A stretch of DNA of 32,740 bases from a bacterium (GTDB lineage: Bacteria > Bdellovibrionota_C > UBA2361 > RFPC01): NCBI GenBank assembly GCA_009926305.1, contig RFPC01000023.1, forward strand, positions 1-32,740, given 5' to 3'. Shown piece by piece: positions 30,043 to 32,588 of the stretch. The translations under genes were made by a program, and so were the position numbers. Every line of letters starts with the position of its first letter. Positions within the stretch are counted from its first letter, which is position 1. The notes beneath the pieces were generated by a model. The model ran no database searches. It worked only from the letters and a program-made list of their open reading frames with translations, and was not told the DNA's origin.

Positions 30043-30846
30043 ATGGATAGTAGTGGAGAGTATGGAATACCAATCCTCCTCGGAATTATTGAGGGATTAA
30101 CTGAATTTATTCCGGTTTCAAGTACTGGTCATCTTATTTTATTCGGAGAGGCACTCACGTATCATGGTCCAGCTGCGGAGACGTTCGAAGTGTTCATTCA
30201 GCTAGGAGCTATTCTTGCAGTCCTATTTCTCTATCCCAATCGTTTTTTGCACCTTCTGCGATTTAATTCATCAGGAGGGTTTTCAGGATGGCAGGGTATC
30301 ACGAAGCTTTGTCTTGCATGCTTGCCAGCATTTGTCCTGGGGTTCCTTCTTCATTCAATTATTAAGGGAATGCTCTTTAGACCAATCCCGGTGGCAATAG
30401 CACTGATTGTCGGAGGAGTTGCTCTGATCGGAATTGAGAGAAAGACTTTAAAAAGTCCAGTTAGCTCGCTTGAAGATATTTCTTTTCGTCAGAGTTTTCT
30501 CATAGGATGTTTTCAGACTCTAGCCCTCTGGCCTGGCATTTCACGCTCTGGTGCTACCATTATTGGTGGAATATGGCTTGGACTTGAACGTACCGTAGCA
30601 GCTGAGTTCTCTTTTCTTGTTGCTGTTCCTGTGATGTTTGCAGCTACGCTATTTGATTTATACAAAAATATGGGTTCGTTGGGAGAGGGGGCATTTACTG
30701 AGTTATCGACGGGTTTTGTTGTGTCGTTCGTCGTTGCATTAATTGCTATCCGAACGTTTATCGGATTTCTGAAGAAATTTTCACTTGCTTCCTTCGGTTG
30801 GTATAGAATTCTGCTGGGGGTGATTGTGTTGCTTGTATTGCGGTAA
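30043..30846 (+). CDS. uppP: Undecaprenyl-diphosphatase
   Basis: UppP (BacA) dephosphorylates undecaprenyl diphosphate on the periplasmic side, recycling the lipid carrier for peptidoglycan and O-antigen; overproduction gives bacitracin resistance. The two signature motifs are present: LGIIEGLTEFIPVSSTGHLIL near the N-terminus (E17/E21 region and SSTGH) and ALWPGISRSGATIIGG further on (with the catalytic arginine and serine). About eight membrane segments fill the 267 residues. A strong ribosome-binding site (GGAGGAGTGAGGC) precedes the ATG. It follows the Na+/Ca2+ exchanger by 23 bp. An extended -10 promoter begins 29 bases after its stop. Confidence 0.96.
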   Translation: MDSSGEYGIPILLGIIEGLTEFIPVSSTGHLILFGEALTYHGPAAETFEVFIQLGAILAVLFLYPNRFLHLLRFNSSGGFSGWQGITKLCLACLPAFVLGFLLHSIIKGMLFRPIPVAIALIVGGVALIGIERKTLKSPVSSLEDISFRQSFLIGCFQTLALWPGISRSGATIIGGIWLGLERTVAAEFSFLVAVPVMFAATLFDLYKNMGSLGEGAFTELSTGFVVSFVVALIAIRTFIGFLKKFSLASFGWYRILLGVIVLLVLR

Positions 30847-30874
30847 ACGAAGAAAAAAGCGGCAGTCCAGGTCG

Positions 30875-30883
30875 TGATATAAT
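30875..30883 (+). promoter_or_regulatory. Extended -10 promoter for a putative small RNA
   Basis: TGATATAAT combines a consensus TATAAT hexamer (30878-30883) with the extended TGn element (30875-30877). No good -35 is visible at the usual spacing, which is common for extended -10 promoters. The predicted start point near 30890 lies just before a perfect 15-bp hairpin. No open frame follows that would explain it as an mRNA promoter. Confidence 0.55.
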
Positions 30884-30893
30884 GATGATTTAG

Positions 30894-30939
30894 GAGTGAG
30901 GCGTTGAGAACTCTTCGCAAAGTGCTCAACGCCTCACTC
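30894..30939 (+). repeat. Perfect 15-bp inverted repeat
   Basis: GAGTGAGGCGTTGAG (30894-30908) is the exact reverse complement of CTCAACGCCTCACTC (30925-30939), separated by 16 bases. No T-run follows on either strand, so it is not a terminator. It would form a stable hairpin at the 5' end of the putative RNA. The right arm is complementary over nine bases (GCCTCACTC) to the uppP ribosome-binding site. Confidence 0.85.
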
Positions 30940-31172
30940 TCATACAGATCTGATGATATGCTGCATTGATAACCTCTAATTTGAAATTTAATTTCAGAAA
31001 ACCTCTATAAAGAAACCTCAGTGAGAACCTCACACATAATGCTTTGTTTCATCAATCTTTCTGTCTGTGTTTGAGCAGGAACAACAGCGTATATCGAAAA
31101 CCTCATGTTTGCTCTTAAAGCGCATGCTTTAAATAACCTCAAAAAAATGACCTCTAGTAATATTGTACTTCT

Positions 31173-31219
31173 GGACTGCCTCGAAAAAATCTGACTTCTT
31201 TCGAGACAGCCCGCTTTTT
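31173..31219 (+). terminator. Rho-independent terminator of the putative small RNA
   Basis: GGACTGCCTCGAAA (31173-31186) pairs with TTTCGAGACAGCCC (31199-31212) with two mismatches in 14 positions and a 12-base loop; the seven loop-proximal pairs (CTCGAAA/TTTCGAG) are perfect. GC plus TTTTT (31215-31219) follows. The orientation is plus, so it cannot serve the converging trmD transcript. Confidence 0.65.
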
Positions 31220-31341
31220 CACTCTTCTACGCATATTAAGTTGTAGAAAAGTTATGAGCTCTTTTGACTGCTATGTAGCTTTGGTTTGCGGCTTACCGAA
31301 GGGGGGTGAGGATAAGTAGCTGTTTTATGGTAGAATTGAGC
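31220..31341. other. Gene-free spacer before the SPOUT gene end
   Basis: These 122 bp contain no open frame of note. A short inverted repeat TTCTAC/GTAGAA near 31224-31248 is not followed by a T-run on either strand. A G-rich run (GGGGGGTGAGG, about 31300-31313) stands out but I cannot assign a role. I found no clear terminator for the minus-strand trmD transcript. Confidence 0.4.
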
Positions 31342-31899
31342 CTAGATTCCCATGAGACGGTCAAGCATTATTGCGCATGCAGAACGTACCGATAGGTGGT
31401 TGTAGTCTCCTGGTCCGTAAATGGGTTCCAGGAAGAGTTCTGCCCTCTCAAGAAGGGCATCACCCATCCCCCATCCTGTTCCCAGCATGAGAAGATATAC
31501 GTTGTCATCAGAGTGAAGAGACTGCTTGAGTTGGCTATAACTTGTTCTGCCGCCCCCTCCCTTGGCTGAGGTAGCTACAAGTATTGGTTTTTTTCCTGTT
31601 TGTTTCTCTAGATCATCAATAATCTCTTCGAGCGTGTGGAGAGCCGTCATGTTGTCGAGAGCAGACTTTCGGTCTGGATTGTACGTAGACCCATAGCCTT
31701 CCTTCCAGTGGGACGTTAGCCGCATTGCCAGTTGATGAAGAGCAAGAGAGGGATGAGCAATATAGGCATGAATAAGTCCATAAGTCTTCGCCGAGCGAGA
31801 GATATCATGAATGTCAATGAGTGTAAGAGAAGTCGTTACTTCATTTCCCGCTTTATCGATCATTCCTTCATGGAGAAGGCAAACTGCAAGTTGTCCCAC
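31342..31899 (-). CDS. SPOUT-fold RNA methyltransferase (PF09936-like)
   Basis: A SAM-dependent SPOUT-type RNA methyltransferase; its RNA target is not known. The N-terminus (GQLAVCLLHEGMIDKAGNEV followed by TTSLTLIDIHDISRSAKTYG) matches the family found beside or fused to TrmD in several bacteria. VATSAKGGGGRTSYSQL and YLLMLGTGWGM, followed by EPIYGPGDYNHLSVRSACAI, form the trefoil-knot SAM site. The frame is open upstream to an ATG at 31947, but the family start and a GGAGGA just upstream point to the GTG at 31899, whose G is the last base of the trmD stop (TAGTG). This 1-bp overlap indicates translational coupling with trmD. Predicted length is 185. The downstream rplS gene often present after this pair is absent here. 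Confidence 0.85.
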   Translation of the reverse strand: MGQLAVCLLHEGMIDKAGNEVTTSLTLIDIHDISRSAKTYGLIHAYIAHPSLALHQLAMRLTSHWKEGYGSTYNPDRKSALDNMTALHTLEEIIDDLEKQTGKKPILVATSAKGGGGRTSYSQLKQSLHSDDNVYLLMLGTGWGMGDALLERAELFLEPIYGPGDYNHLSVRSACAIMLDRLMGI

Positions 31900-32588
31900 T
31901 ACTCCTCCCTGTCTTTCTTTCGTTTTTGAGATTCTACGTTTCGCCATTGTAAGATAGCTTGATGATCACCAGAGCGCAGAACTTCAGGGACTGTATGCCC
32001 CCGGAAATCTTCTGGTCGGGTATACTGAGGAGCCTCAAGATAGCCTTGCTCTGAGTGCGATTCATCGTTGAGTGATTTCGGATTGCCGAGTACTCCCGAG
32101 CGCAGTCTCAGCACGGCCTCAAGTATGACCATAACAGGAACTTCTCCGCCCATCAGCACATAGTCGCCAATAGAGATCTCTTCGTCTACGAAGTGATCAA
32201 GAACCCGTTGATCAATACCTTCGTATCGACCGCAGAGGAAAATGAGCCCTGAGCTTTGGGCAAGTTGCTTCGCCTTTTGTTGTGTGAATGGCTTTCCGGC
32301 TGCACTAGGCGCAATGACTATGCCTTCTCCATGAAGTTTTTTCTTTGCCTCTTCAATCGCTGCAACAAGGGGTTCTGGCCTCATTACCATGCCGGCGCCA
32401 CCACCATACGGGATATCATCAACATGGTGGTGCGGCGGTGGCGCAAAATCTCGCGGATTAAGGGTCGAAAAGCGAAAAAGATGCTCGCGAACAGCCTTTT
32501 GAATAAGGCTGGTTTCGACAAACTGTTCGAAAAAGTTAGGGAAGAGGGTTATCGCACATGATTGAAAAATTTTATTGTTCGATTTCAT
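31899..32588 (-). CDS. trmD: tRNA (guanine-N1)-methyltransferase TrmD
   Basis: TrmD methylates G37 of tRNAs next to the anticodon, preventing +1 frameshifts. It is a SPOUT-fold dimer. Signature motifs are ITLFPNFFEQF, HVDDIPYGGGAGMVMRPEPL, LCGRYEGIDQRVLDHFVDEEISIGDYVLMGGE in pieces (the SAM knot) and RPEDFRGHTVPEVLRSGDHQAI, the tRNA-binding tail. Residues and length (229) are as expected. The first 8 residues look like an unusual leader, and the start ATG has no clear Shine-Dalgarno sequence. It is read in the order trmD then SPOUT gene, overlapping by one base. No rpsP or rimM is seen in the 150 bp upstream, so the usual ribosomal operon order is either interrupted or lies further off. Confidence 0.96.
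   Translation of the reverse strand: MKSNNKIFQSCAITLFPNFFEQFVETSLIQKAVREHLFRFSTLNPRDFAPPPHHHVDDIPYGGGAGMVMRPEPLVAAIEEAKKKLHGEGIVIAPSAAGKPFTQQKAKQLAQSSGLIFLCGRYEGIDQRVLDHFVDEEISIGDYVLMGGEVPVMVILEAVLRLRSGVLGNPKSLNDESHSEQGYLEAPQYTRPEDFRGHTVPEVLRSGDHQAILQWRNVESQKRKKDREE

Follow-up and report, generated by a model that had tools for sequence, protein, structure and literature searches.

A putative structured RNA gene with repeated AACCU elements downstream of uppP, and its counterparts across one bacterial order

The window, meaning the whole stretch of 32,740 nucleotides that was analyzed, lies on contig C23 of the host genome G000 (3.0 Mb, 281 contigs). A gene-free stretch at 30847-31341 was located between uppP on the + strand and two convergent genes on the - strand, which encode an RNA methyltransferase and TrmD. 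The genes and features of this region were as follows.

30043..30846, + strand: uppP (undecaprenyl-diphosphate phosphatase), the conserved upstream neighbour (NCBIfam NF001390, 300 bits, cut-off 260)
30875..30883, + strand: extended -10 TGATATAAT, read directly; predicted start near 30890-30893
30893..30940, + strand: P1, 5' hairpin GAGTGAGGCGTTGAG / CTCAACGCCTCACTC (fold, -32.2 kcal/mol)
30951..31054, + strand: P2, long-range stem pairing 30951-30968 with 31037-31054, around AACCTC copies 1-4 (fold)
30971..31031, + strand: AACCTC copies 1-4 (30971, 31000, 31014, 31026), mostly unpaired in the fold, with CCTC of copy 4 paired
31065..31114, + strand: P3, tentative hairpin CTGT/ACAG (31065-31068 with 31084-31087), by eye from G000, G002 and G003
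31099..31154, + strand: AACCTC copies 5 and 6 (31099, 31135) and GACCTC (31149), from motif positions and fold
31116-31131, + strand: small hairpin between AACCTC copies 5 and 6 (fold)
31172..31219, + strand: 3' hairpin, P5-like, stem 31172-31213 followed by CTTTTT (fold, -13.1 kcal/mol)
31342..31947, - strand: SAM-dependent RNA methyltransferase (Methyltrn_RNA_4), convergent neighbour (Pfam PF09936, E 9e-64)
31899..32588, - strand: trmD, convergent (NCBIfam NF000648)

The motif ACCTC occurred seven times, on the + strand only (30972, 31001, 31015, 31027, 31100, 31136 and 31150). The array spanned 30972-31154, and six of the seven copies read AACCTC while the remaining one read GACCTC. These counts, and the claim of an earlier note on this DNA that they exceed chance, were confirmed by the exact positions and by 5,000 dinucleotide shuffles of the intergenic stretch 30847-31341, which held 0-4 copies. 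In the 432 kb sample of G000 that was used for motif clusters and Shine-Dalgarno usage, the array was the only place on either strand with at least four AACCT per 200 nt. A pattern of three AACCTC was searched in 192 genomes; the other matches looked like coding repeats or chance, and their frequency was not above that of the reversed control. The copies were spread over all three reading frames, so the array marks no coding repeat. A protein-coding reading of the stretch, which the earlier note had named as a refuting outcome, was ruled out since the motifs lie in three frames, the helices covary and no frame fits.

The 342-nt window strand folded far below its shuffles (z = -5.1). The same note had seen all the parts of an sRNA gene here. 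The extended -10 and the strong 5' hairpin held and the terminator is plausible, but a -35 match was not found and simple scanners called neither the promoter nor a terminator at 31172-31219. The promoter was missed because of the absent -35 match and the terminator because its stem has internal loops; in the predicted fold, the 3' hairpin and TTTTT probably form an intrinsic terminator. Judged by eye from G000, G002 and G003, the P3 loop GAGCA (31073-31077) could tentatively form a pseudoknot with TGCTC (31110-31114); this P3 arrangement was not clear in G005.

Counterparts of the window RNA were detected downstream of uppP in 17 further genomes, so that with the window 18 of the 29 sampled genomes of the order carry one. 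G002, G003 and G005 share the family of the window (f1), G007, G008 and G018 represent three other families, and 11 genomes belong to family f11; RNA boundaries outside f11 were placed by hand. The counterparts diverged strongly in sequence and had hairpins in common. With the window RNA as query, a BLAST-type DNA search rose above noise only at the P1 arm of the congener G002. Weak P1-like matches in G024 and G028 were inspected by eye and rejected as RNA loci. Beside uppP in some genomes of the order (e.g. G006, G011, G012 and G014) no counterpart was found. Judged by gene positions in the relatives, the window-like arrangement of trmD and uppP recurs in several of them.

Within the order, uppP was close to trmD in several genera. 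In G006 and G011 the gap between uppP and trmD barely exceeded the methyltransferase gene and left no room for the RNA. In G020 (f11) the RNA and uppP lay on different contigs that both end in the same GC-rich repeat, which indicates that the assembly broke there. Tandem GC-rich repeats GGAGGGCCGGCGGCCTCGCCGGCC lay between uppP and the RNA in the two loci of this genome (L106 and L119), and a similar repeat, CGGACCGCGAGTACGCGGTCC, occurred in locus L107 of G026. In G003, long inverted repeats of the CCAGTCCTAGTCC / GGACTAGGACTGG type surrounded the locus downstream of uppP (L083, 100-230 and 690-760).

Family f11, the best-sampled one, could be aligned over a core of 126 columns with three helices and 26 pairs (alignment A1). 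In this core 86.5% of the cells were paired, vs 28-43% when one side was slid, and changes on both sides occurred at 13 of the 26 pairs, vs 4.5 in shuffles. The f11 P1 is a long-range stem that closes the molecule (GAAGUGAAGACGUUCCG with CGGAACGUCUCACUUC in G027). Its own arms paired with -25.6 kcal/mol vs -17.0 kcal/mol for swapped arms, a comparison on hand-cut arms that favours own pairs; as an independent check, P1 was present in the unconstrained folds of most members. The covarying helices, together with the evidence for P1, indicate that the feature is an RNA whose structure is under selection. The covariance model R1 recovered the 11 f11 members (E 6e-14 to 7e-22). In all other genomes of the class it gave nothing below E 0.28, and it had no convincing match to f1, G008 or G018.

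In f1 the P1 letters GUGAGGCGUU with AACGCCUCAC form a local 5' hairpin (30893-30940 in the window). The array follows this hairpin and lies partly inside the second long-range stem (30951-31054). Both window P1 arms were also present in G002, and stems equivalent to P2 with other letters were recognised on visual inspection of G002 and G003. The 3' arm of the window P1 resembled the P1' arm of G020, in which CUGAACGCCUCACUUC nearly equals the window CUCAACGCCUCACUC. The order AACCT, hairpin, AACCT, A-rich linker, ACCT was common to the window RNA and f11. From place, motif and the similar P1 letters we infer that f1 and f11 may be a single family whose parts were reordered. Against this unity, R1 has no match to the window, and the two groups differ in P1, which in f11 encloses the entire molecule and in f1 is confined to a local hairpin.

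Over all RNAs AACCT was the most enriched 5-mer (55 vs 12 expected from shuffles), and it stayed so with the window left out. It was also the top 5-mer in G002, G005, G008 and G018, a set selected purely on location (13 vs 3.6); G003 and G007, whose windows had been positioned by AACC clusters, were excluded from this synteny-only test. The 17 RNAs together held 92 AACC on the RNA strand and 3 on the other. What follows AACCU, or even AACC alone, varied: the next base was C in the window and U, G, A or C in the relatives. The conserved unit is AACCT and not ACCTC: the window RNA had seven ACCTC, the remaining f1 RNAs and those of G007, G008 and G018 had 1-3, and f11 (10 RNAs) had 0-1. Conservation of the motif in relatives, which the earlier note had proposed to check, thus applies to AACCT as recurring top 5-mer but not to ACCTC.

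With its conserved place, its conserved and covarying helices and no coding frame, the proposed sRNA gene is supported, and the feature seen in the window is very probably genuine as an RNA gene. A repeat array acting at the DNA level as protein-binding sites, or a chance cluster, would be in line with the scanners missing both promoter and terminator. This reading is very improbable given the compensatory changes in the helices, the strand bias of AACC and a cluster unique in 432 kb.

The AACCU repeats sit in A-rich linkers that are predicted to be unpaired. In the predicted folds of the 17 RNAs, the C of AACC was unpaired in 78% of cases, vs 39% for other C (Wilcoxon P 1.5e-5). In f11 the AACC elements lie in the A-rich joins between helices. 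The simplest reading of an exposed, conserved short element in a fast-changing structured RNA is a set of binding sites for a single partner, which is probably a protein.

The first idea of the earlier note was an array pairing ACCUC with GAGGU in Shine-Dalgarno sites. ACCUC is indeed part of the 16S 3' end (GGATCACCTCCTTTTA), the window has seven unpaired copies, and α-r14 sRNAs carry three anti-Shine-Dalgarno motifs in unpaired regions (PMC10746234). The α-r14 or cuckoo sRNAs of rhizobia (e.g. NfeR1) resemble the window RNA in having variable stems and several identical C-rich motifs placed in unpaired parts. However, their CCUCCUCCC is ultraconserved and anti-Shine-Dalgarno, whereas here only AACC(U) is kept, and they have three hairpin motifs in place of 3-7 linker sites. 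The f11 RNAs keep neither ACCUC nor CCUCC, and five nucleotides make a short pairing site. GAGGT preceded 6% of the sampled G000 genes and AGGAG or AAGGA 17-18%, figures informative only for the relative use of GAGGT and AGGAG as start sites were chosen with a Shine-Dalgarno preference. GAGGT is thus a minority form, and a trans-acting sRNA of the α-r14 kind is improbable.

Comparison with Rfam 15 yielded no gathering matches in the window. The best hit in the region came from a miRNA model of plant type, on the opposite strand (E 0.17), and the homologues had no relevant match up to E 1. The covariance-model search suggested earlier thus ended with no fitting Rfam family. tmRNA and RNase P RNA were rejected as candidates, their G000 copies being elsewhere (G000:C54, 190.6 bits, and G000:C49, 276.9 bits). 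The 6S model RF00013, which recovers only 5 of 14 controls, had no match anywhere in G000, and the window fold is not one long bulged rod.

The closest architectural parallels are CsrB/CsrC and RsmX/Y/Z, the sponges of CsrA: stand-alone RNAs of a few hundred nt with a short repeated motif, hairpins and an intrinsic terminator. A CsrA homologue is encoded in the window genome (G000:C3:33737-33895, E 2.5e-25), and CsrA genes were detected in 25 of the 29 genomes of the order, which together with the multi-site architecture would suit a CsrB- or RsmY-like antagonist of CsrA. In those RNAs, however, GGA lies in hairpin loops, whereas here AACCU lies in linkers. GGA was not enriched over the 17 RNAs (70 observed vs 56 expected), ANGGA occurred 18 times vs 19 expected, and the window RNA has 3 GGA. 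AACCU also differs from the CsrA SELEX consensus RUACARGGAUGU (PMC7652899). A CsrA antagonist is hence highly unlikely. The protein sponge that the earlier note gave as its other reading fits better than anti-Shine-Dalgarno pairing, but CsrA is not obviously the protein.

On balance we think it probable that the locus belongs to an undescribed, fast-evolving structured noncoding RNA family of the order, offering AACCU sites to a partner that is most likely a protein. At about 30890-31219 the + strand of the window would encode a free-standing structured RNA of roughly 330 nt. Its helices would keep apart A-rich single-stranded linkers, each with AACC(U), giving about 3-7 such sites in each molecule. 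This recurring open element would most likely be the binding site of an RNA-binding protein, several per RNA, and such a multi-site RNA could act as a scaffold or titrating sponge. What the analysis showed directly is the array with its enrichment among relatives, the conserved location, covariation in the helices of one family and the predicted lack of pairing; that the RNA is transcribed, what it binds and which way it regulates is what we infer in this scheme. By analogy with Csr/Rsm, a more specific form is possible, short of probable: an order-wide regulatory or housekeeping RNP of 3-7 AACCU sites and a putative AACCU-specific protein with an unrelated recognition code. We know of no AACCU-binding bacterial protein.

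The main rival is a structural role of the AACC joins or RNA self-assembly. The A-rich linkers and CC would dock on helices or on a second RNA, giving compact or multimeric RNAs in the manner of OLE, ROOL and GOLLD with no dedicated protein. The number and spacing of AACC differ between RNAs, so a structural role is possible. AACC elements flank helices in f11, a loop pseudoknot may exist in f1, and large bacterial RNAs assemble via A-minor contacts and kissing loops (PMC12286853). OLE, ROOL, GOLLD and raiA (ModT) are likewise conserved structured bacterial RNAs with no evident role in coding, and A-rich joining regions occur in some of them, but these families are either larger or widespread and have Rfam models, and none of those models matches here. 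The window-type RNA is smaller than OLE, ROOL and GOLLD. Moreover, linker lengths differ and the position of the motifs relative to P1 is not the same from one family to another, while tertiary motifs usually fix geometry. We regard this rival as rather unlikely.

If the protein-partner reading is true, a structured RNA family absent from Rfam exists in a lineage with almost no RNA biology, and the conserved AACCU predicts a protein or RNA surface recognising that letter code. Identifying the recogniser would show that bacteria have, next to CsrB with its GGA, another way of building multi-site RNA sponges or scaffolds.

Two minor features were observed in the f11 loci. A conserved block behind P5 (e.g. 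L100, reverse strand, ~480-530) contained a small hairpin with the loop AGUAUA(U), followed about 20 nt later by CUCAAAAUAGUUUUU; the RNA may have its actual 3' end in this block. In the P4/P1 region (e.g. L102, reverse strand, 95-300), UUGCGGAAC has two possible partners, the local P4 arm (UUCCGCA) and the P1 5' arm (GUUCCG); P4 and P1 of f11 therefore overlap and could switch.
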